Source: a virus. Taken from it: 21,424 nt of DNA. The notes below the pieces were generated by a model. It was not told the DNA's origin, searched no databases, and saw nothing but the letters and a program-made list of their open reading frames with translations. This document shows positions 10,436 through 21,424 of this stretch, piece by piece. How positions within the stretch are numbered: position 1 is the stretch's first letter; each line of letters begins with the position of its first letter. A program made the position numbers and the translations under genes. Location of the stretch: the IMG/VR virus record IMGVR_UViG_3300046451_000802, positions 1-21,424 of that record, one strand, 5' to 3'.

Positions 10436-12010
10436 ATGGCAAGACAACCTTACTTTTCAGGCAATTACGGAAGCGCACTAGCGCAGGTGGACACCCGCCC
10501 AATCATGCAGGGCGCGGCGGCGCAAGCGGCAATGTACCAGGGTATCGGGCAGAATATTGGCGGGGCTATTGAGAAGTATCAATTGAATAAGGTTAAACGA
10601 GCAAAACTGACGGGTGACATTGAGGCATATCTAGAGGAGAATCCTGACTATGCGAATAAGTCAACGATGACGGGCGATGAAGCGGTTGACAAAAAGAACA
10701 TGACCGAAAATGAGAAATTTCTTTCCGGTGATTTGAATATGGCTGGGCTTGAAGGGCTTGCCGGTAAGTTGGCAAGAGGGGATACACTGCGTAAAAATAA
10801 GCTTTTGGAGGAATCACAAAGAACCTTAAATGAGGCAGGGAGATTTAATTTAGGTTTAGCTAAAAAGCTGGAGGAGTCTAAATTGAGCGTAGCAAAGAGT
10901 GACGCTGATCTAAAAGAATTCCAGACGACAGTGGCAAAGTTTGATCTTGAAGACTTGCAGAAGCTTAGACCTCCTGAGCAACTTCTCCGACTCCAAGATC
11001 TGAAGAACAAGCTTTCTAGTGCGAATTTTGAGGGCAAAATGCAACCCTATACGCAATCCCTTGAGAAAAGCAATATTGCCGCACAAGAACGCGAGCGAGA
11101 CATCAACGAGGAAGTGCTTGCTAAGCGGGGCGGAACTTCCGGTGTGGCGGCGGATCGGTTCAATGAGATTGAACAGAAAAAGGCAGCTATTGAAGACGCT
11201 ACGGCTACCCGAAAACGAAATAAAAAGATTGCTAATGCTTTATTTGATGCAAGTGGCGGCGCAGCAGGGATGGCGAAAATGAGCATGGAGGACAGAGAAC
11301 TTAGGAAGGATCAGATTCTTTTGGGCATGGAGGGAGTGAGGTCACAAATGAAAGCAAATCAATGGAGTGCATTGTTAAAGTTCGCCCCAGCCAGCGTTAA
11401 ACAGCAAACCGGTGATTTAGCCGCTGAGCAAGGACGCTTGCTAGGGCTTATGGTAAAAGATCCAATCACCCAAGGACAAATCACCTTCAAGAAGTATCTG
11501 GAATTGAATAACACCAAAGGTGATGACCAGTATCCCCTAAAAGGGGATAAAGCCGGTACGGCTGCCACTTATCACGGCCAGTATGTGACCGGCCAAAGGC
11601 AACTACAGGATCTTTATAACGGTGTGCAGGTTCAAGCGAACGATACTAGCGGGGGTGGTAGCACGGGTGGTGGCACGGGAGGTGGAACAGGTGGCGGTGT
11701 GCTACCTTCCGTCATAGACTCAGGCAAGATGACTCAGGAACAGGCGAATACAGCCGTATTTGATCGCAAGACAGAAATCTCCAATCAGATTTATAATTTA
11801 CAAACTAAACTTAGGAATATAGGAACTCCTGGCGCGACGATGCCAGCACCCGTCCCAATTGCTTCTACATGGCGGGGCTACGGGGGAGCGCCAGGTTCTT
11901 ACGGCCCTCAACCTGCGACACTCGGATACGAAAACCGGCAACGGCAGGAACTTACCACGAACATTCAGGCGTTGGAGGCAGAACTTAAAGAGTTAGAGAG
12001 TTACCGCTGA
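10436..12010 (+). CDS. Coiled-coil internal virion protein
   Basis: 524 residues, four bases after the preceding stop. The N-terminus (RQPYFSGNYGSALAQVDTRP) is followed by an Ala/Gln helix (GAAAQAAMYQGIGQNIGGAI) of the kind found at the start of phage internal proteins. Residues about 100-300 are highly charged, Lys/Glu/Leu-rich helices with heptad character (e.g. LLEESQRTLNEAGRF, KLEESKLSVAKSDADLKEF). A Gly/Thr linker (residues 406-421) separates a C-terminal helical domain (STWRGYGG..., then RQRQELTTNIQALEAELKEL). No enzyme motif was found. Position between two giant virion proteins and overlap of its TGA with the next ATG (TGATG) suggest it belongs to the ejected or internal-core set. Confidence 0.6.
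   Translation: MARQPYFSGNYGSALAQVDTRPIMQGAAAQAAMYQGIGQNIGGAIEKYQLNKVKRAKLTGDIEAYLEENPDYANKSTMTGDEAVDKKNMTENEKFLSGDLNMAGLEGLAGKLARGDTLRKNKLLEESQRTLNEAGRFNLGLAKKLEESKLSVAKSDADLKEFQTTVAKFDLEDLQKLRPPEQLLRLQDLKNKLSSANFEGKMQPYTQSLEKSNIAAQERERDINEEVLAKRGGTSGVAADRFNEIEQKKAAIEDATATRKRNKKIANALFDASGGAAGMAKMSMEDRELRKDQILLGMEGVRSQMKANQWSALLKFAPASVKQQTGDLAAEQGRLLGLMVKDPITQGQITFKKYLELNNTKGDDQYPLKGDKAGTAATYHGQYVTGQRQLQDLYNGVQVQANDTSGGGSTGGGTGGGTGGGVLPSVIDSGKMTQEQANTAVFDRKTEISNQIYNLQTKLRNIGTPGATMPAPVPIASTWRGYGGAPGSYGPQPATLGYENRQRQELTTNIQALEAELKELESYR
11651..11698 (+). repeat. Gly-Ser/Thr linker repeat inside virion gene
   Basis: Four GGG units separated by Ser-Thr, Thr and Thr (residues 406-421), encoded by near-repeated GGT/GGA/GGC-ACG units. 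It is a flexible hinge between the coiled-coil part and the C-terminal helical domain. Confidence 0.8.
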
Positions 12011-15000
12011 TGCCTATCGTAACCATGTCATTGGGGGAGGCTCTTGAGAAAGGGTATGAAATTGTTGGGGCGCAGCAACCTTATCGCGAGGAAGCTACCG
12101 CATGGGAAACCGCCAATATAATCGGGCGTGAAGTAATTCCCGCCATTGGGGGTGCTATGCTGGGCAGTATTGGTGGCCCTTGGGGTGCGGCTGGAGGTGG
12201 TGCTGCGGGAAGTTCATGGGGGAATTATCTAAGTCAACAGTACCGCGTTGATCGCGGTTTGCAGTCCGGAATAAATCCCGGCGAAATGGTGGCGGCGACA
12301 GTAGCGGGTGCTATTCCCTTCGGGGCATTACCCGGCAAGGGGGCATTGGCGAGAACTGCCATTCGCGGGGCGCAAGGCGCAACGGTTGCCGCTGCTGAGA
12401 CAACCGGAAGGACGCTCATTGACGAGGGTAGAGCGCCAACCCAAGACGAGCTTCTTACTTCAGTTTTATTTGGCGGTACGATTGGCGGCGTAATGGGTGC
12501 AGGTGAAGCGGCTTTTGCCAAGTGGAAGTCGGGAGCGCCGTTTGAGGGTGGAGAGAACCAGAGCGGCGCGTTAGCCCTCATAGAAAAGGAATTCACCGAA
12601 GCCACTCCATTCACCCCGCCGGGACTCGCGAGAGGAGAACGATGGACTTGGACACCGCAAGAAAGGTTGGATGATAAACCCATAGTCAATTCCCTCGCAT
12701 TGGAGACCGCCGGAGACGGCAACATCTTGGTCTTGGAAGACAAGATAATATTGCCACCCGTGCGTGGATCGGGCGGTGAAGTCATCTCACTTGACGATGC
12801 ACCCGATTGGGTAAACATCGGCGGGAAGCAGACACGTGATATTTCGGCATTACAAAAGAAGCTGGATGCCTTGGTGGATGAAGGCAAAATGACCAAGAAG
12901 GAGCGCGCCAAGTTAATTAGAAACGCGCGTAAGCGTGAATTCGGTACTGATCGCGTTTTCACAAGTGTCCCCGAAGGCGAGCAAGCTTTTGACCCACGAT
13001 TCTACGACCTCATAAACGGGGAGTACGTACAGAAAGCCATTCGCCAAACTACCGCCATACAGCTTGCTCAAGACGTTCTGGACGTAACGCAAGCGGACTT
13101 GGCGAACGACGTATCGGGATACGTTAAGCGCATTGCTCAAGCTCAAGCGGGTTCATTATCTGAGCAAGACGAAGGGCTGCGCAACTTACTTGAAAGCGGA
13201 CTGACTCAACCCGACCTCACTAGAACGCTCAATGCATCCACGCAAGATCCGGTCACCGGCAAGTTGCAGAAGCTGGAAAACGAAACCCGACCCGGCTCCG
13301 TTGTCGGAGAGGAAGAACGTTTGGCACGAGTGGCCGCAGGTGAGCAGCAACCATCCGCCGCCGCCGGACTAACGGGAATGCTGGACACCCGTCAGGCAGC
13401 AAGCGAAATACCCGGACACTTTAGCATAGTTGACCCTACCGGCCCAACCACGCGCAAGAACCAAACACTGCGCGCTAGGTTGGCGCAAAACGGTACGGAA
13501 GTATCTCAGCCCTTAGAGATAGGTCACACTGAACTCTTGGCTTCACCCGCTCCTCGCCGGGAAAGATTGACGGAGTTTCGTAAAATAGTGGATGACAGTT
13601 CCGGACTAGATATAGATGCGGACAAAATGCTCAAGCGCCTTAATGACGAAATTGAGGTGACTGAAGGGTCTTCTGCTGTAGGAGATTTTGCTTTCGGGAG
13701 TCACTTTAGAAATACTCAACATAAAAATACAAAGTTAGAAAACCTTGAACGGCAAAAGGCTCGTCTGATGTCACCGGCGGTGGTCTTGACTGAGGCTAAT
13801 AGAACCCTGTGGAATGATTTAGTCAGAGGAAATGAGAAAGTTCAACGCAATGCGTTCCTCACAACCACCGCCCGGCTGCTTAATGCAGACACCCAGTTGA
13901 CTTTGGAGGCAATTAAAGCAGCGGATAACGCGACAATCATTGGGAATGGTAGGAACAGGCGAATACAGATAACGCGCAATGGCAAAACGGAGTTGCTTCC
14001 CACTTTCCGCCCTGCAAGTGGGGGTGGAATGCAACCCCTTGCCGACCTAATTGCGCCTAGGGGACAAATCCAAACTAAAACGCTTGTTGATTGGTTGCGG
14101 ACTAAGTGGGTCAATGAAAACAGAGCGATACAAGCGATGGGCGAACTTGTTCAGTCGCCCGGTAGGAATGGAGTAATTATTAAGCCCCTGACCCCAAGGA
14201 CGGCACTGAAGGTAGGGAAGGAGATTTCGCCAGACCTTAACAGGTTGGTTGCCAAACAAAAAAGTATAGTCAGAACTGTAAAGGACGGAAGGGAACTACT
14301 GGCTAATGAGTTGACCTTGGGCGCAAACCGCGCGCTGGTCACGGCGCGAAATATAAACAGTGAATCCGTTCCCGCCACATTGATAAGCGACATGCACTTG
14401 GATGCTTTGCGGAAGAGAGTGGCCTCCATTAAAGAACTGAACCTTCCTGACGAATTGGAGTTGGCGTTGATTGCCGGAGAATCTGAGACCGCTACCGCCA
14501 TTTTGAATGCTTGGGAAAAATCGCTGTTGGGTCACTTGATAAAGGTGGGACTAAATTCCGGTGAGGCGCTACATGGCGTGGGGAGACTTTCCCCCACGGG
14601 TTTATTTCCGAAGGGATATATTGATCCCGCAACGAACAAACGGATTACACAAGGAGCACTGGTTAAAATCACCGAAAGAAAACTTGGCAACGACGAGCTT
14701 AAGCACCTCTTGCCAGGTCTCGGCGCAAAAAACAAAATCGCAAGATCTTGGCTGAAAGTGGGTCAAAGCAACAAAGGCGACGCCGGAACAGTTGCGGTTA
14801 ATGAATCCGGCCTTCCAGACCCTATTGACCTCTCCTCAGATAGTACCGCATCCCCGAAGTTTGCTAATATGGCTCTCAAAGTCGGTGAAGCAAACGCCCT
14901 TCTGAACGCGCTGAAGTCCCCCGGACTTAGCCCCGGCAACCTAACCGCAAGCGCCGCAATCGCAGGTGCTGGTATATCTCAGATGTCTGCCGATGAGCGC

Positions 15001-17535
15001 GATGAACTTTTAGGGAAGGTATCCCGTGGTGACATTAGTATTTTCTTAGCTCTTGGGGGTTTATTACTTTTGGGGACAGCCGGAAGGCAGGGAATACGCA
15101 CAGCGTTTCGCCGCTCGGATGTTTACAAGGCTGCGACCAACCCCAAGACCCAAGCAAGGATGGTGGAGCAACAGCCCAATAGCCCTAACAGTCCCAACAC
15201 AGGGTATGAGAGCACGATAAATGCCACACTGAACCCCAATTCAGTGGTAGCAAACATGCAGCGCATGGTCGCCGCAGCCACTCGGCAAGTGGCAGACCTG
15301 GCAGAACCGTTGTCTCGCACTCTGAAGTCAGTTGGCCGTAAGTGGGACGAGAAATCGGGAACGCTAAAAATAAACAAATACTTTGCGGCAATGATGCGAG
15401 CCGTGGAACAGGATGCCTCCACGACAAAAGTGCGCTTCCGTGAAAAGCTAATACCTATCGTCAGTCAAATGTACACGAAGACTGGCAAGGTTCACCATGA
15501 GGCAATCACGGACGCTCTACTGCACACCACTCAAGACACCTACGCAACAGTGCTGAGAATTTTGGAAGGCGCGAACGAGAACGTTGAGTGGAACGTTGTG
15601 GTGACAAAGTTGCGCGAGGGACTTGCGGAAGTACGGGCGTTTGGGCGAGAGCAGGGAGGCTTAGATATTGGCGAGTTAAAAGACTTCTTCCCGCGCCAAG
15701 TCCTGAATCGCTTGACCCGAAACCCCAAGGAATTGCGGCGAGAGTTGAGAGACGCAGTAGATGACGAAGGAGTTCCTTTACTCAATGATGATTCGGATTT
15801 GACCAGAGCGCTAAACGCCGAAGCGAAGATGCAGGATCGCACGGGGTGGGAAAAGCTCAGTAATGAAGACATCGCTGCGGTGACTCAGAAATATCTTCAA
15901 GAGAATTTACACAGAAGAGCCGGAGGGTTACCGGGTGGGGCGAAAGAAAGGCGAGTGGGAAGAATCCATAAGATCGTCAGTAAGTACTATGCCGACCCCA
16001 TAGACGGGCTGGAAGCCTACATAGACGGCATCGTAGAAAAGTCGGTGTGGAATCGCTTCCGGAATGAAAACCCGAAGGTAGATTTAGAGCGTGATAAACT
16101 GGACAACATAAGGTTCACCGAAGAACGGAAGACCACCTTACTCCAGCAGATGGACACCGGTGAAGCATCCATTAAGAAAGTGGGTGGCGGAAAATTTCGG
16201 GTAAGCTACGTGGATAGCGCGGGGCAGCAAAGAACTGCCAACCTAAATACCAAAGTCCCAGTCACTGACGGTATCGCCAAGGTGACTGCGGTAAATAAGA
16301 TTGCGGATTTGGACTTGGATATAATCAAAAACGCCAGGAAAAAACAGCGTCAGGATTTGGGTTCAAAAAGGGATGAAAGAAAGTTTCAAAAAAATCAAGA
16401 AGTGGAGTTCATGCGAAAGCACGGTGCTCTATCCGCTGAAGATCGGGACATAGTGGATAAAGTCTTTGAATCGCGGATGGAATCCAATAGCGGGATGAAT
16501 CCCGTGCTCAAGGAGATCAAGGACTTGGGATACCTCATGGTACTGTCTAATCTCGGTAGCGTGATGACCCAGTTCGCTGACGTCGCATTTAGTCTCCACC
16601 GAAACGGACTTAATGCCACCATGCAAGCTGCCGTCCGCAGGGAATACGACCTTGCCAAGAAGCTTGGTATATCTACCTATGAGTTGAACAACATGAGTAG
16701 CTCCGGTGGTGGAGTGGCGAAGGTACTGAACTGGACTTTTGACAAGATAAAGTTCTCACAAGTGGACAAGTTTGGTGCTAATACTTTTCTAAATGCACGC
16801 TATATAAAGATGAAGAACCAGGCTAGAGCTGGTGGCGCTGCCGAAGCAAAGCTGCGCTCGGAGCTAGACGAGTATGGAGGGTTCTTGGATACCAACCAAG
16901 TCATCTACGATCTAAAGACCAACAAGTTGACCGACAGCGTGGAAGCGGTTCTCTACAATGAGATTTTAGACGTTCGTCCCGCAAACCTTTCAGAAATGTC
17001 CGGTGCTTACGTACGAAACCCTAACGGGCGAATCTTTTACATGCTGAAATCATATCAGTTAAAACAGATAGATTACTTCCGCGAGCATTCTGAAAACCAA
17101 ATCCTAGAAGGCAAACTAATGATGCAGCAGGGGAATACCGGCGGTGCTAAACGAATGGCTGAAGGTATTATGCAGTTGGCTGGACTTGGCGCAATTTTCG
17201 TAGGAGTGAGCGGGAGTATGGACGTAGCGAAAGACGTGGTTTACGGACGTCCGATTGATATGGACGACAAGATGTCGGATGCGGGATGGCGCTTATTCGG
17301 TTTATCTAGGTACTTCCCGTATCAAGTGAGACGCGAAGGGCCAATTTCCGCCGCTGCGGATTGGGCGCTTCCGCCGCTCAGTGCATACAGCAGACCTTTT
17401 AAAGATATTATAGCCATAGAGGATGGGTTTGCCGGTGAAACCACAAGAGGCTTGCCCGGTGGAGACTTTTACTACTGGTACTTCGGCGGAGGTCGCGATA
17501 AGATCAAGCGCGATCTGGAACGCAAGAGTGACTAA
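12010..17535 (+). CDS. Giant (1841-residue) ejection/internal virion protein
   Basis: The largest gene in the window, overlapping the previous stop by one base. The N-terminal 170 residues hold glycine-zipper hydrophobic stretches (about 43-69, VIPAIGGAMLGSIGGPWGAA; 92-108; 148-166) that could enter membranes. The centre (about 250-1000) is mostly charged helices. A single strong TM-like segment lies at about 1009-1025 (ISIFLALGGLLLLGTAG). From about 1100 the chain is again helical and basic; residues 1512-1533 (LSNLGSVMTQFADVAFSLHR) and 1673 onward (RIFYMLKSYQLKQID) resemble the C-terminal helical region of phage large polyvalent or ejection proteins. Another hydrophobic stretch is at 1721-1735. 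I saw no clear transglycosylase or protease motif. The likely role is passage of DNA through the host envelope. It ends the late block. Confidence 0.6.
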   Translation: MPIVTMSLGEALEKGYEIVGAQQPYREEATAWETANIIGREVIPAIGGAMLGSIGGPWGAAGGGAAGSSWGNYLSQQYRVDRGLQSGINPGEMVAATVAGAIPFGALPGKGALARTAIRGAQGATVAAAETTGRTLIDEGRAPTQDELLTSVLFGGTIGGVMGAGEAAFAKWKSGAPFEGGENQSGALALIEKEFTEATPFTPPGLARGERWTWTPQERLDDKPIVNSLALETAGDGNILVLEDKIILPPVRGSGGEVISLDDAPDWVNIGGKQTRDISALQKKLDALVDEGKMTKKERAKLIRNARKREFGTDRVFTSVPEGEQAFDPRFYDLINGEYVQKAIRQTTAIQLAQDVLDVTQADLANDVSGYVKRIAQAQAGSLSEQDEGLRNLLESGLTQPDLTRTLNASTQDPVTGKLQKLENETRPGSVVGEEERLARVAAGEQQPSAAAGLTGMLDTRQAASEIPGHFSIVDPTGPTTRKNQTLRARLAQNGTEVSQPLEIGHTELLASPAPRRERLTEFRKIVDDSSGLDIDADKMLKRLNDEIEVTEGSSAVGDFAFGSHFRNTQHKNTKLENLERQKARLMSPAVVLTEANRTLWNDLVRGNEKVQRNAFLTTTARLLNADTQLTLEAIKAADNATIIGNGRNRRIQITRNGKTELLPTFRPASGGGMQPLADLIAPRGQIQTKTLVDWLRTKWVNENRAIQAMGELVQSPGRNGVIIKPLTPRTALKVGKEISPDLNRLVAKQKSIVRTVKDGRELLANELTLGANRALVTARNINSESVPATLISDMHLDALRKRVASIKELNLPDELELALIAGESETATAILNAWEKSLLGHLIKVGLNSGEALHGVGRLSPTGLFPKGYIDPATNKRITQGALVKITERKLGNDELKHLLPGLGAKNKIARSWLKVGQSNKGDAGTVAVNESGLPDPIDLSSDSTASPKFANMALKVGEANALLNALKSPGLSPGNLTASAAIAGAGISQMSADERDELLGKVSRGDISIFLALGGLLLLGTAGRQGIRTAFRRSDVYKAATNPKTQARMVEQQPNSPNSPNTGYESTINATLNPNSVVANMQRMVAAATRQVADLAEPLSRTLKSVGRKWDEKSGTLKINKYFAAMMRAVEQDASTTKVRFREKLIPIVSQMYTKTGKVHHEAITDALLHTTQDTYATVLRILEGANENVEWNVVVTKLREGLAEVRAFGREQGGLDIGELKDFFPRQVLNRLTRNPKELRRELRDAVDDEGVPLLNDDSDLTRALNAEAKMQDRTGWEKLSNEDIAAVTQKYLQENLHRRAGGLPGGAKERRVGRIHKIVSKYYADPIDGLEAYIDGIVEKSVWNRFRNENPKVDLERDKLDNIRFTEERKTTLLQQMDTGEASIKKVGGGKFRVSYVDSAGQQRTANLNTKVPVTDGIAKVTAVNKIADLDLDIIKNARKKQRQDLGSKRDERKFQKNQEVEFMRKHGALSAEDRDIVDKVFESRMESNSGMNPVLKEIKDLGYLMVLSNLGSVMTQFADVAFSLHRNGLNATMQAAVRREYDLAKKLGISTYELNNMSSSGGGVAKVLNWTFDKIKFSQVDKFGANTFLNARYIKMKNQARAGGAAEAKLRSELDEYGGFLDTNQVIYDLKTNKLTDSVEAVLYNEILDVRPANLSEMSGAYVRNPNGRIFYMLKSYQLKQIDYFREHSENQILEGKLMMQQGNTGGAKRMAEGIMQLAGLGAIFVGVSGSMDVAKDVVYGRPIDMDDKMSDAGWRLFGLSRYFPYQVRREGPISAAADWALPPLSAYSRPFKDIIAIEDGFAGETTRGLPGGDFYYWYFGGGRDKIKRDLERKSD

Positions 17536-17936: not shown

Positions 17937-18479
17937 ATGTCATTTCTACCAGAAAACTATAAGCCTCTTGCCCCAGCCGGTGGCGGGTACATGAAATTAA
18001 CGCCCGGTGAAAACCGAATCCGCATACTAGGTTCAATGAACGAGTCTCCACCTACCGCCATTCGCGGCATGGTTGGATGGGGTACGGACTCCGAAGGCAA
18101 TCGCAAACCAGACCGCACGCCAGCCGGTGAAAAGGTGGACGCTTCCAAATATGAGGACAAGCCCAAGGAGTTCTTTGCGATGATCGTGTGGAACTATGCG
18201 GCGGAACAAATCAGCATCCTTGAGGTGACGCAAGCGAGCATCATTGGGGAGATAGTCTCATTAGCTAATGATGAAGATTGGGGCGACCCCAAGGAATACG
18301 ACATCTCTATAGTGAAGACAGGCGAGGGCATGGAGACCCGATACAACACCGTACCGAAGCCCAAGAAGGTTCAGACCGGTGAGATTAAGAAGGCATTCGC
18401 AGACGCTGAGATAAACTTGATGGCGCTATTCAGTGGTGACGATCCGTTCGCCCCCGTAGCCAAGAAAGATCCCTTCTGA
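17937..18479 (+). CDS. ssb: Single-stranded DNA-binding protein, gp32/gp2.5-like
   Basis: 180 residues. The N-terminus has the hallmark GGGYMKLTPGENRIRIL (15-31), followed by the first strands of an OB-fold (IRGMVGW); the middle has FFAMIVWNYAAEQISILEVT (79-98), IGEIVSLANDEDWGDPKEYD (103-122) and the 'GEGMETRYNTVPKP' strand (129-142), all typical of phage gp32-like binding proteins. The end is acidic and finishes in Asp-Pro-Phe (SGDDPFAPVAKKDPF), like the acidic-aromatic C-tails of SSBs that recruit partner enzymes. It coats single strands at forks and recombination intermediates. TGATG overlap couples it to the exonuclease gene, and it may serve as the annealing partner for that enzyme. No Shine-Dalgarno is seen. 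Confidence 0.8.
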   Translation: MSFLPENYKPLAPAGGGYMKLTPGENRIRILGSMNESPPTAIRGMVGWGTDSEGNRKPDRTPAGEKVDASKYEDKPKEFFAMIVWNYAAEQISILEVTQASIIGEIVSLANDEDWGDPKEYDISIVKTGEGMETRYNTVPKPKKVQTGEIKKAFADAEINLMALFSGDDPFAPVAKKDPF

Positions 18480-19462
18480 TGGAAGGTTTAACGAAAGGCA
18501 TCCCGAACGCTGATTATCATGGAAGTGATGAACTCAGCAGAAGCACGGCATCCTCCCTCCTCACCACTTCACCTGCAAAGGTGAGGTGGGAGCGGGACAA
18601 CCATCGTCCATCATCCCTGCCGTTCATTATGGGTGGTTGCTTCCACGGCATGGTGCTAGAGCCGGAGTGTCTGGACGATGAGTATGCAGTAAAGCCCCCC
18701 GATATTGACGGTAAGAGTCCCCTGACTAAGCACTACAAGGAGACCTTTGCGGAAATGCAGGAGGAGCGACCGGATGCACAGTGGCTTAAAGCTGACGAGT
18801 GGAAGACGTGCTTGGGCATGGCTGAAGCAATCATGAGCAATCCCGTGTACACTCACTACGCAAGCGACGTGGAAGCGATAGCGGAAGGGAGCGGATACTT
18901 TGACTACAACGGTGCTAAGTGCAAAGTACGACCAGACCTCTATGCCTCTGATGGAACGATCATTGATCTGAAGTCCACGCAAGACGCTTCCGAAGCTGGA
19001 TTCCGTAAAAGTTGCCGCAATTTTGGGTACGATTTTCAGGCCGCGTGGTACTTAGAAGCGATGCGAGCAATGGGACTACCGGCTCGCCAATTCATATTCT
19101 GTGTGGTGGAAAAAGTAGCCCCTTTTAGTGTAGCTACCTATACCCTCACGGAAAGCGAGATAGACCGCCACAAGCCGCGTATGCAAAGGGCATGTGACTT
19201 GTGGGCTACCTGCATGGACACCGGTGTGTGGCCAGGATACCCCGAAGAAGTGGTGACCTTGGATCTCAGCCGATTTGGGGACAACCACAAGCTGTCGCTG
19301 TCTCAAGTGGCTGAGAAGTTTGGGGTAAGCAGGACATTCGTCTACACGATCATCAAGGAATACGAATTAGAAACAACCAACGTAGGGAATCAGCGGCGAG
19401 TGGATCTCACCGCTTTTAGTAATGCCCTACGAAACCACAATGAAGGAAAGAATGCGACATGA
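18479..19462 (+). CDS. RecE-like PD-(D/E)XK exonuclease with C-terminal HTH
   Basis: 327 residues; ATG overlaps the SSB stop (TGATG). Residues about 1-255 are a RecE/exodeoxyribonuclease-VIII-like nuclease of the PD-(D/E)XK fold: LSRSTASSLLTTSPAKVRW (19-37), GGCFHGMVLEP with His56 (52-62), the KVRPDLY motif with Asp153 (149-155), IIDLKST with Asp163 and Lys165 (161-167), and FGYDFQAAWYLEAM with Gln187 (182-195). The active-site residues look intact. Residues about 271-318 form an extra helix-turn-helix (LSQVAEKFGVSRTFVYTIIK, then NVGNQRRVDL), an unusual addition. The enzyme probably resects duplex ends to make 3' single strands for annealing. It is in an operon with SSB and RusA-like resolvase. 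No RecT or Erf gene is seen nearby. Confidence 0.8.
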   Translation: MEGLTKGIPNADYHGSDELSRSTASSLLTTSPAKVRWERDNHRPSSLPFIMGGCFHGMVLEPECLDDEYAVKPPDIDGKSPLTKHYKETFAEMQEERPDAQWLKADEWKTCLGMAEAIMSNPVYTHYASDVEAIAEGSGYFDYNGAKCKVRPDLYASDGTIIDLKSTQDASEAGFRKSCRNFGYDFQAAWYLEAMRAMGLPARQFIFCVVEKVAPFSVATYTLTESEIDRHKPRMQRACDLWATCMDTGVWPGYPEEVVTLDLSRFGDNHKLSLSQVAEKFGVSRTFVYTIIKEYELETTNVGNQRRVDLTAFSNALRNHNEGKNAT

Positions 19463-19911
19463 GATTCTGGATAAGCTGTAACCCGCCCCGCTCCACTGCC
19501 CAATCGCAAAGGCGTATCGGAATGCGGGGGAAGATTCCAATGATGTACACCACTGCCAAAGGGAAGGCGCAAGAAGCCGACTTCATGAGCCTCCTCCATC
19601 CCTTCCGCCCTGTGAAGCCATACGATGGGTCGCTACGCCTTGGCATCAGCTACTGCCTACCCCTACTTGGGACGGAGAAGAAAGCAATCCGGGAAAAAGG
19701 CTGGACTACGCACGCAAAGCGCCCTGATTTGGATAATATTTCTAAGATGTTTTGCGATTGTATGGGAAAGCTCCTGTTCTTTTCGGAGGACTCACGCATC
19801 GTCCATCTAAGCCTCAAGAAGTACCGCTCGGAGAGTCCTGGCATTGGCGTGACGCTTGAGGTCGTTACGGACGAGCAGGTGGGAGATCCACGACAGTTTA
19901 TACAGGGCTAA
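19459..19911 (+). CDS. rusA: RusA-family Holliday-junction resolvase
   Basis: 150 residues; ATGA overlap with the exonuclease. The RusA signature is present: KRPDLDNISK (87-96), with Asp90, Asp92, Asn93 and Lys96, then a Asp100 helix (MFCDCMGKLL) and FFSEDSRIV with Asp111, followed by a Lys-Lys strand (HLSLKKYRSESPGIGVTLEV). In E. coli RusA the matching acidic residues bind the metal ion and the Lys helps cleavage. The N-terminal part has PPRSTAQSQRRI and GISYCLPLL, the strand before the active site. It cuts four-way junctions during phage recombination or before packaging. It closes the recombination set and is followed by a 69-base leader before the initiator gene. Confidence 0.8.
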   Translation: MRFWISCNPPRSTAQSQRRIGMRGKIPMMYTTAKGKAQEADFMSLLHPFRPVKPYDGSLRLGISYCLPLLGTEKKAIREKGWTTHAKRPDLDNISKMFCDCMGKLLFFSEDSRIVHLSLKKYRSESPGIGVTLEVVTDEQVGDPRQFIQG

Positions 19912-19924
19912 TTACACTAGAAAA

Positions 19925-19931
19925 CATAACT
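19925..19931 (+). promoter_or_regulatory. CATAACT leader element, copy 3
   Basis: Third copy, directly after ACTAGAAAA and one base before the hairpin at 19932-19960. It lies in the only non-coding stretch of any length inside the replication block. Confidence 0.35.
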
Positions 19932-19960
19932 GCATTCGTCCTCCAGGTGGTGGACGATGC
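19932..19960 (+). promoter_or_regulatory. Hairpin/inverted repeat in initiator leader
   Basis: GCATTCGTCC (19932-19941) pairs with GGACGATGC (19952-19960), 9 bp with one bulged T, around a 10-base loop. No T-tract follows, so it is not an intrinsic terminator. It covers an alternative ATG at 19957, so it would hide that start. It may be an RNA translation control element or an operator for the ribbon-helix-helix-like N-terminus of the next protein. Confidence 0.55.
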
Positions 19961-19970
19961 TACCGCATGA

Positions 19971-19975
19971 AAGGA
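19971..19975 (+). promoter_or_regulatory. Shine-Dalgarno that decides the initiator start
   Basis: AAGGA, five bases before the ATG at 19981. The competing ATG at 19957 sits within the right arm of the hairpin and has only AGGTGG in the hairpin loop before it. Confidence 0.65.
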
Positions 19976-19980
19976 AATCT

Positions 19981-20562
19981 ATGAACGAAAAACTACGAGT
20001 ATCTCTGAACGAAGAAAGCTATGAAATGTTGCAACGCCGCAGGTCTGAGCTTGCCCAAACCGGCAACCAGATTTCATGGTCACATGCTCTCAACGACTGC
20101 ATGAAAACTCTTAACGAATTGACCGAAAAGCACAGCACTTTAGTGCAACAACATGAGGATTTAATGCGCCACTTCCATGCCACTCCTGCGCCACTTTCTG
20201 GCCTCTCCTCACGTACACGGGAGACAGTAGACTTAAAATATAAAGAAAAAAAATGTATAAAAAAAGAAATTGCACCACCGAAGAAACGTGGACTCCATCT
20301 TTTACCCAAAGATTTCGCCCCACCACGATCCATAGCTTCGGAAGCCGGAGTAGATTATGAAGGAGCATTGGAGTGCTTCGCCGACTGGGCAAACTCTCGT
20401 GGAAAAAAATACACGGACTGGACTGCGACGTTTCGCAACGCCTGCCGTTCATGGCTCAAGGAGAAGTTTCCTCATCTTCGCCGTGTCCCAATCAAATCTC
20501 ATGGCGATTCCCAAATCCTGCGTAATGAGGACATGAACGATACCAGACCGCCCCTCGCATGA
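19981..20562 (+). CDS. Replication initiator/helicase loader: RHH-like N-terminus, DnaT-like C-terminus
   Basis: 193 residues from ATG 19981 (201 from ATG 19957). Residues 2-45 look like a ribbon-helix-helix: a strand (EKLRVSL), helix (YEMLQRRRSELA) and second helix (WSHALNDCMKTL). A short coiled coil follows (LNELTEKHSTLVQQHEDLM), then a Lys-rich linker (about 84-104) and a C-terminal domain of DnaT/phage replication-protein type: ALECFADWANSRGKKYTDW, then ATFRNACRSWLKEKF. That domain type binds ssDNA and helps load the DnaB helicase in E. coli DnaT and related phage proteins. The next gene is DnaB-like and starts in an ATGA overlap. The overall plan resembles lambda O: DNA-binding N-terminus, linker, helicase-interacting C-terminus. 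The RHH call is from the pattern only. Confidence 0.65.
   Translation: MNEKLRVSLNEESYEMLQRRRSELAQTGNQISWSHALNDCMKTLNELTEKHSTLVQQHEDLMRHFHATPAPLSGLSSRTRETVDLKYKEKKCIKKEIAPPKKRGLHLLPKDFAPPRSIASEAGVDYEGALECFADWANSRGKKYTDWTATFRNACRSWLKEKFPHLRRVPIKSHGDSQILRNEDMNDTRPPLA
20165..20271 (+). other. Candidate replication origin inside initiator gene
   Basis: TGCGCCACTT occurs at 20165-20174 and 20187-20196, 22 bases (two helical turns) apart, with a shortened TGCCACT at 20178-20184 between them. 34 bases later a 41-base stretch (20231-20271) is nearly all A/T with long A-runs. Iteron-like repeats followed by an A/T-rich region within an initiator gene, in the part coding the linker, is the layout of the lambda origin. 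Confidence 0.5.
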
Positions 20563-21424
20563 CGGAATCACCACTGGCAGAGACTGCGGTACTCGCAGGG
20601 ATCATGGCGGATGAAACCTCAAGGTCTTCAGCACTAGCAATGGAGCATCTGACCGTTGATGATTTCACCAACGACACTAACAGGACTCTCTTTGAGGCGT
20701 GCCGCACGCTAACTGCCCCGTTCAACGAGATAGACGTGGCGATTGAATCAGGTCTGAATGCCGACTGCATGGAAATATCCAGCCGCCACGGTGGAGGCGA
20801 CATCATGCGGTACATTGATTTGCTCATTGCCTCCAGACAAACCACCCAAGTGCGTGCCGCATTGCTACGAGCAACCGACTCACTGGCAGAGGGAGATCCG
20901 CAAGAAGTAGCTTCAGCTTTCATAGCAAGTTGCTCCGGCGCTTTAGCGTCACGACGTCACGCCATCTCATGTGGGATCGCTGTAAAATCCGCACTTGCCG
21001 ATTTCTTAGCGACTAACGAAGGAGGTGCAAACGCGCTGCCGACCGGCTTCAACTGCATGGATGAACTTCTTGGTGGCGGCTTCAAAGCTGGCACGGTTAC
21101 GATAGTGGCCGCAAGACCTGGGGTGGGTAAATCCGCTCTCGCTTTATGGTTCACGCTTCAGACTGCAAAGCATGGCAAGAACACAGCCTTCGTGAGTTTG
21201 GAAATGAGTGCTACGGAATGCGCCGGTCGCATTTTGTGCGCTCAATCCGGGCAACGCAGGGTGTACTCCAAAGGTGGGTACTCACCCCAAAGCATTTCTG
21301 AATTGCACGACACCGCCACGTCCATGAGGTCTTGGCCAATCCGATTCAAGGACGATGCGGAAGACTCAATTGATTCCATCGTAGCGTTTGTGCAAAGAGA
21401 GTCCATTGAGCGCGGAGTGGATCT
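20559..21424 (+). CDS. dnaB: DnaB-type replicative helicase, 3' truncated by window end
   Basis: ATG overlaps the previous stop (ATGA); the frame runs open to the last base, so 288 residues are seen and the C-terminal part is missing. Residues about 4-50 follow the DnaB N-terminal domain (AETAVLAGIMADE, LTVDDFTNDTNRTLFEACRT). The RecA-like ATPase domain starts at about 160: LPTGFNCMDELLGGGFKAG, then Walker A ARPGVGKSA (185-193, Lys191 and Ser192), AFVSLEMSATE (210-220) with the catalytic Glu215, and LCAQSGQRR. This is the hexameric fork helicase. Directly after a DnaT/O-like protein, it is the expected loader-helicase pair. The N-terminal domain is shorter than in E. coli DnaB. Confidence 0.88.
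   Translation, partial: MTESPLAETAVLAGIMADETSRSSALAMEHLTVDDFTNDTNRTLFEACRTLTAPFNEIDVAIESGLNADCMEISSRHGGGDIMRYIDLLIASRQTTQVRAALLRATDSLAEGDPQEVASAFIASCSGALASRRHAISCGIAVKSALADFLATNEGGANALPTGFNCMDELLGGGFKAGTVTIVAARPGVGKSALALWFTLQTAKHGKNTAFVSLEMSATECAGRILCAQSGQRRVYSKGGYSPQSISELHDTATSMRSWPIRFKDDAEDSIDSIVAFVQRESIERGVD

Follow-up and report, generated by a model that had tools for sequence, protein, structure and literature searches.

A candidate replication origin of 11-bp iterons within the initiator gene of a tailed phage, probably read by a ribbon-helix-helix-like domain

Findings

We analysed the linear virus record IMGVR_UViG_3300046451_000802 (21,424 bases, here termed the window) and found that the segment 20161-20274 is very probably a phage replication origin located inside the gene for its own initiator, in which iterons are followed by a presumed unwinding element and an N-terminal domain resembling the ribbon-helix-helix (RHH) fold would read the iteron boxes. 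Judged from its sequence, the window comes from a tailed phage whose capsid protein is of the SU10 type. The + strand carries a replication and recombination block with the following genes:

17937-18479, + strand: gene for a single-strand-binding-like protein (ORF list; Pfam/PHROG profile searches)
18479-19462, + strand: gene for an exonuclease VIII-like protein (ORF list; profile searches)
19459-19911, + strand: RusA gene (ORF list; profile searches)
19981-20562, + strand: initiator gene, 193 aa (ORF list; starts aligned with those of the relatives L002, L003 and L176; phrog_1032)
20559-21424, + strand: gene for a DnaB-type replicative helicase (Pfam DnaB_C, E 8e-19, and DnaB N-terminal domain, E 8e-6; phrog_19)

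Alignment with the relatives places the initiator start at ATG 19981, another in-frame ATG lying upstream at 19957. The helicase gene overlaps the initiator stop codon, and its 3' end lies beyond the contig. Between the structural genes and this block, 12010-17535 encodes a 1,841-aa protein for which no credible Pfam match was obtained, and the exonuclease VIII-like protein has an additional C-terminal helix-turn-helix segment (residues about 270-315, below the cut-off).

The layout proposed in an earlier sequence-only reading of this DNA, namely lambda-style iterons and then A-rich DNA where the initiator gene encodes its linker, was borne out and is conserved beyond coding; a helicase-related gene lies next, as the lambda-style arrangement has it. 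The features within the initiator gene are:

19981-20181, + strand: N-terminal domain (AlphaFold2, mean pLDDT 82.6 for the domain alone; the equivalent domain of a distant branch passes the RepB-RCR_reg cut-off)
20168-20173, + strand: iteron box 1, GCCACT
20179-20184, + strand: iteron box 2, GCCACT
20190-20195, + strand: iteron box 3, GCCACT
20201-20206, + strand: iteron box 4, GCCTCT (GCCGCT in L003; absent in L002 and L176)
20182-20286, + strand: segment coding for the linker, residues 68-102 (pLDDT < 50)
20218-20232, + strand: conserved spacer CGGGAGACAGTAGAC (identical across the four genomes at 13 of its 15 columns)
20231-20271, + strand: A-rich presumed DNA unwinding element (A8 at 20246, A7 at 20259)
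20287-20490, + strand: C-terminal O/DnaT-like domain (phrog_1032; Foldseek; weak tblastn match to 'primosomal protein I')

The iteron array

The sequence-only reading had reported an exact 22-base repeat with TGCCACT between its copies, and its coordinates were verified: TGCGCCACTT occurs in exact form just twice in the window, at 20165-20174 and 20187-20196, with TGCCACT at 20178-20184, and this 22-bp tandem is the top-scoring tandem repeat of the entire window (TRF score 62). The repeat is therefore real, but the reading had taken two steps as one, the real period being 11 bp: four hexamers begin at exact 11-bp intervals, at 20168, 20179, 20190 and 20201. We looked in the gene for the highest-scoring set of four evenly spaced 6-mers, allowing all periods between 8 and 30, and used as the null synonymous recodings drawn with the codon usage of the phage. 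The best array of the initiator gene was that of period 11 at 20168-20206, with 23 of 24 matches, a score reached by none of 10,000 synonymous recodings of the window protein. Likewise, the pattern GCCRCY-N5-GCCRCY has two overlapping matches at the boxes and none elsewhere in the window, against 0.10 expected. As 11 is not a multiple of 3, a repeat in the protein cannot be the cause of this periodicity. Tandem iterons within the initiator gene, as in an intragenic origin of the lambda type, are present here in the form of four boxes with an 11-bp period. The 5-bp inverted repeat GCACT-TT-AGTGC, which had been noted just upstream, does lie at 20135-20146, but it fails on conservation, its left arm being absent in L002 and L176; we accordingly dropped it as a part of the origin, and it looks incidental from this comparison.

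Conservation in relatives

The comparison set consisted of four independent genomes, namely the window, L002, L003 and L176, of which the latter three share the gene order of the window and encode complete initiator homologues (61% identical to the window protein in L003 and 63% in L002). In all three the search over periods 8-30 also selected period 11, at the position homologous to the window array. All four boxes of L003 are perfect copies of GCCGCT (24/24; 2 of 10,000 synonymous recodings were equally good), while the boxes read GCCGCT, GCCGCT and GCCGCC in L002 and GCCGCC, GCCGCT and GCCACC in L176, the fourth being gone in both; the L002 and L176 arrays, each taken alone, are not above chance by the 4-box score. 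The window and L003 differ by the identical A/G exchange (GCCACT versus GCCGCT) in boxes 1, 2 and 3, where it falls on codon positions 2, 1 and 3 and results in His/Arg, Thr/Ala and a silent difference in Pro, respectively. The same change at three codon positions, two of them amino-acid changing, is as one would expect if the DNA motif rather than the protein has been kept uniform.

A codon alignment of the exonuclease, RusA, initiator and helicase genes of the four phages, scored in windows of 38 codons, gave the top synonymous identity of the block at 20161-20274 (120/138, 87%), as against a mean of 55.5% (sd 7.5, maximum 81.5%) for the 654 windows in the other three genes. The elevation over this segment is seen in 6/6 genome pairs and is hence not due to one recent recombination. 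These silent sites, the recoding test and the A/G co-variation together show that the repeats and the A/T stretch persist in relatives beyond coding need; the sequence-only reading had named loss of the repeats in close relatives that keep the protein as an outcome that would speak against it, and this is not what is seen. The second-highest silent-site conservation of the block (81.5%) is at 18488-18601, the start of the exonuclease gene; this signal comes mostly from the near-identical L002-L003 pair (35/37), so recent recombination is possible there. A collection scan with GCCRCT-N5-GCCRCT-N5-GCCRCY returned many chance matches, and among the loci fetched the protein was found only in the already known relatives; the genome collection yielded false matches only (L171, L172).

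The A-rich stretch and the spacer

The claim of a 41-base A/T stretch located 34 bases past 20196 was right as to position, but the stretch is 37/41 A+T and not pure A/T. By nearest-neighbour energies 20231-20271 has a dG of -40.1, the lowest stability among all 41-mers of the window, and the A-rich 41-mer is likewise the least stable at the L002, L003 and L176 loci. An AT-rich region adjacent to the iterons is thus present, beginning 25 bp past the last box, with a predicted capacity for unwinding. Its lysine codons are AAA and AAG in a ratio of 24:2, versus 20:39 in the remaining parts of these genes (Fisher p 3e-7, a nominal value since the sequences are related), and the strong AAA preference is confined to the A-rich part. 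Box 1 and the A8 tract lie 78 bp apart in the window, L003 and L002, where in L002 one codon has been lost and one gained for a net change of zero, and 75 bp in L176. The conserved spacer leading from the iterons to the A-rich stretch could, from its sequence, be another protein site of the origin.

The initiator protein and its distant relatives

The AlphaFold2 model of the N-terminal domain has a presumed unpaired strand at about residues 4-10, a helix at 11-25 and a long helix at 33-67; an unpaired strand followed by two helices is the RHH order as a monomer model would show it, and we presume the domain to be RHH-like with a coiled-coil extension. Residues 68-102 are probably disordered according to the model, and the DNA encoding them holds most of the putative origin. 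The C-terminal domain is modelled as helical and has a weak match to phrog_1032 'replication initiation protein' in 20/20 family members; its Foldseek matches are phage replication, HTH, DUF1376 and DnaT-domain proteins (top match 39% identity over 76 columns). Neither the window protein nor any of the 20 family members matched Phage_rep_O (PF04492) at E values up to 1, whereas lambda O and P22 gp18, as positive controls, matched it in that library with E values of 1e-35 or lower. On these profile searches the initiator is placed outside the Phage_rep_O family.

Searches of the PDB for the fold of the full model and of the N-domain alone gave no significant match, PDB sequence searches with family profiles gave no credible one, and comparison of the window N-domain with RHH families gave no significant match in sequence or fold. 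A distant branch of the family (L005-L051) provides a link: its proteins are 38-45% identical, and their genes neighbour exonuclease and DnaB-type genes of the same kind, in an unchanged gene order. The N-domain of L011 passes the cut-off of Pfam RepB-RCR_reg (22.3 bits versus 21), which we take to be a family of the RHH type, and the N-domain of this branch weakly resembles ParG, Arc-like repressors and RepA regulators. The N-domain profiles of the window group and the distant branch align weakly (E 0.0018, probability 15%). From the topology, the sequence pattern LRVSLNEESYEML...ISWSHALNDCM and this weak profile match, the window N-domain is likely to be an RHH domain; the RHH fold is well supported for the distant relatives and only indirectly for the window protein. 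The suggestion of an RHH-like domain rather than a winged helix therefore agrees with the strand-helix-helix topology and with the RepB-RCR_reg match of the distant branch, while the window N-domain itself lacks an RHH profile match.

The linker-coding segment of the distant branch also shows raised silent-site conservation, and the least or second-least stable DNA of the locus lies within it. In 18/18 sequences it contains an inverted repeat whose 8-bp arms match perfectly around a loop of 4 bases (e.g. L006:3276-3295 and L005:2856-2875); this repeat occurs in two forms, GGTATTTC..GAAATACC and ACATATTC..GAATATGT, five compensated pairs apart; the N-domain is nearly unchanged between members with different forms. 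The inverted repeat may be the origin element of this branch, or a hairpin.

GC skew

Cumulative GC skew turns at or just before the boxes in the four genomes (at 20031, 5153, 5025 and 2408, with boxes at 20168, 5155, 5206 and 2589). In each genome the turning point is a maximum, the + strand being G-rich leftward and C-rich rightward. A minimum at the origin, which is usual though not strictly defining, is hence not what is seen; in the lambda control the cumulative skew has its minimum at 38383, near the lambda origin, although skew is confounded with gene direction in both the window and lambda. In L002 and L003 the genes switch to the - strand some 1.5-2 kb to the right of this point, so gene direction contributes to the turn, but the + strand helicase gene is already slightly C-rich. 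The expected skew change thus occurs at the site, but its polarity is the reverse of the one at the lambda origin; because of this the skew gives no independent support, and as evidence for an origin it is neutral to mildly adverse.

Comparison with known origins and a proposed mechanism

Judged by sequence layout, the site shares its architecture with the origins of lambda and P22 and, above all, with that of Salmonella phage L. Within gene 18 of phage L (MW013502; PMC8022706), as within the window gene, there are 11-bp direct repeats (TGTCCAACGGA, in six imprecise copies) with an AT-rich run after them, and the next gene encodes a DnaB-type helicase; the intragenic origin of this phage is itself a proposal (PMC8022706). 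Phage L differs in its O-type initiator (phrog_345) and in its other repeat sequence, which is split into two clusters. The 11-bp repeats accompanying an O-type initiator led us to drop the 11-bp period as proof of an RHH reader. P22 gp18/gp12 resembles the window in having an annotated origin inside the initiator gene with a DnaB-like helicase gene next, but differs in its Phage_rep_O N-domain and its repeats of about 20 bp (PMC8022706). Lambdoid origins are located in the middle of gene O, and lambda has four iterons and an AT-rich region there (PMC7466680); in NC_001416 the iterons lie at 39034-39118 in steps of 20-24 bp. Unlike the boxes of the window, those of lambda are 18-19 bp inverted-repeat iterons binding O dimers (PMC5043065), the O protein has a Phage_rep_O N-domain, and the next gene encodes the helicase loader P, which acts on host DnaB, in place of a phage DnaB-type protein. 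The initiator of lambda, when on the iterons of supercoiled DNA, opens the adjacent A+T-rich region of about 40 bp (PMC5043065).

Binding of 10-11 bp direct repeats by an RHH protein has parallels in ParR/parC of plasmid R1 and other RHH adaptors (PMC9426499, PMC5016525), although these serve segregation rather than replication and their site is outside the gene. The antitoxin PrpA (PMC7848731) is an RHH protein that binds the origin iterons of a plasmid, but rather than serving as the initiator it acts as a competitor of it and so blocks replication (PMC7848731).

The array and its period, the conservation and co-variation beyond coding, the extreme instability of the A-rich DNA, the order of the predicted domains and the identity of the neighbouring genes are direct results. 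We infer the order of events at the site from lambda, where iteron binding is followed by A+T-rich opening, with a phage DnaB-type partner as in P22 and L. In this model dimers of the RHH-like N-domain would bind the GCCRCY boxes; lying 11 bp or one helical turn apart, the boxes would present one DNA face and allow a cooperative nucleoprotein array, which would strain and open the adjoining A-rich element. The O/DnaT-like C-domains, on their flexible Lys-rich linker, might then hold the single strand and/or recruit the DnaB-type helicase of the phage, and this helicase, encoded directly downstream, would be loaded at the site.

Alternative explanations

The boxes could instead be an internal operator or a centromere-like site, with the RHH-like protein repressing the operon or segregating the genome and the A-rich stretch being merely linker coding. 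RHH proteins are indeed mostly repressors or partition adaptors, ParR of plasmid R1 requires at least two 11-bp repeats (PMC9426499), and the N-domain of the distant branch matches the replication regulators RepB/RepA. However, 19850-20650 has no sigma-70-like promoter site, the search of window genes identified no partner ATPase or filament gene, conservation at the DNA level extends to the A-rich stretch as well as the boxes, and the C-domain is of the replication-initiator type; we therefore consider this explanation unlikely.

That the segment reflects coding alone, i.e. a low-complexity linker and chance repeats common by ancestry, is very unlikely. In its favour are the partial conservation of the residues encoded around the boxes and the degenerate arrays of L002 and L176. 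Against it, each genome pair shows much higher conservation at silent sites here than across the remaining gene block, the 11-bp spacing does not follow the codons, and the A/G exchange shared by several boxes alters amino acids in some of them. The A-tracts might also be slippery sites for programmed frameshifting or transcriptional slippage, yielding a short product with only the N-domain, the repeats being a leftover of local duplication. Although in-frame A AAA AAA heptamers occur in the A-rich stretch (A AAA AAG in L002), stops are reached within about 25-40 codons in the shifted frames, and slippage leaves the 11-bp boxes, their co-variation and the conserved spacer unexplained, which makes this account hardly probable at all.

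Implications

What differs here is the initiator, which lies outside Phage_rep_O and probably carries an RHH domain, the architecture itself being already known. RHH domains are otherwise known in repressors, antitoxins and partition adaptors. In the literature, as far as our partial coverage of it goes, we found no RHH protein acting as a replication initiator, RHH proteins being known there as inhibitors acting on iterons and as partition adaptors. It is an evenly balanced question whether the origins of these phages form a lineage of their own, with an RHH domain turned into the origin-recognition domain of a lambda-O-like initiator that builds a nucleoprotein array at one-turn spacing over boxes in its own linker codons, with boxes and initiator diverging together between phages, and with a palindrome taking the place of the boxes in the linker of the distant branch. 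If the origin is as proposed, the intragenic iteron origin would be a recurrent solution that is not bound to the DNA-binding domain of the O family, and the family would offer a case for following how the specificity of an initiator and its target sites diverge together. The segment provides a compact (about 110 bp) and directly testable candidate origin in an uncultured phage group. Should the RHH assignment be true, this would be, as far as the partly covered literature shows, the first RHH-type domain proposed as a positive initiator of phage replication.
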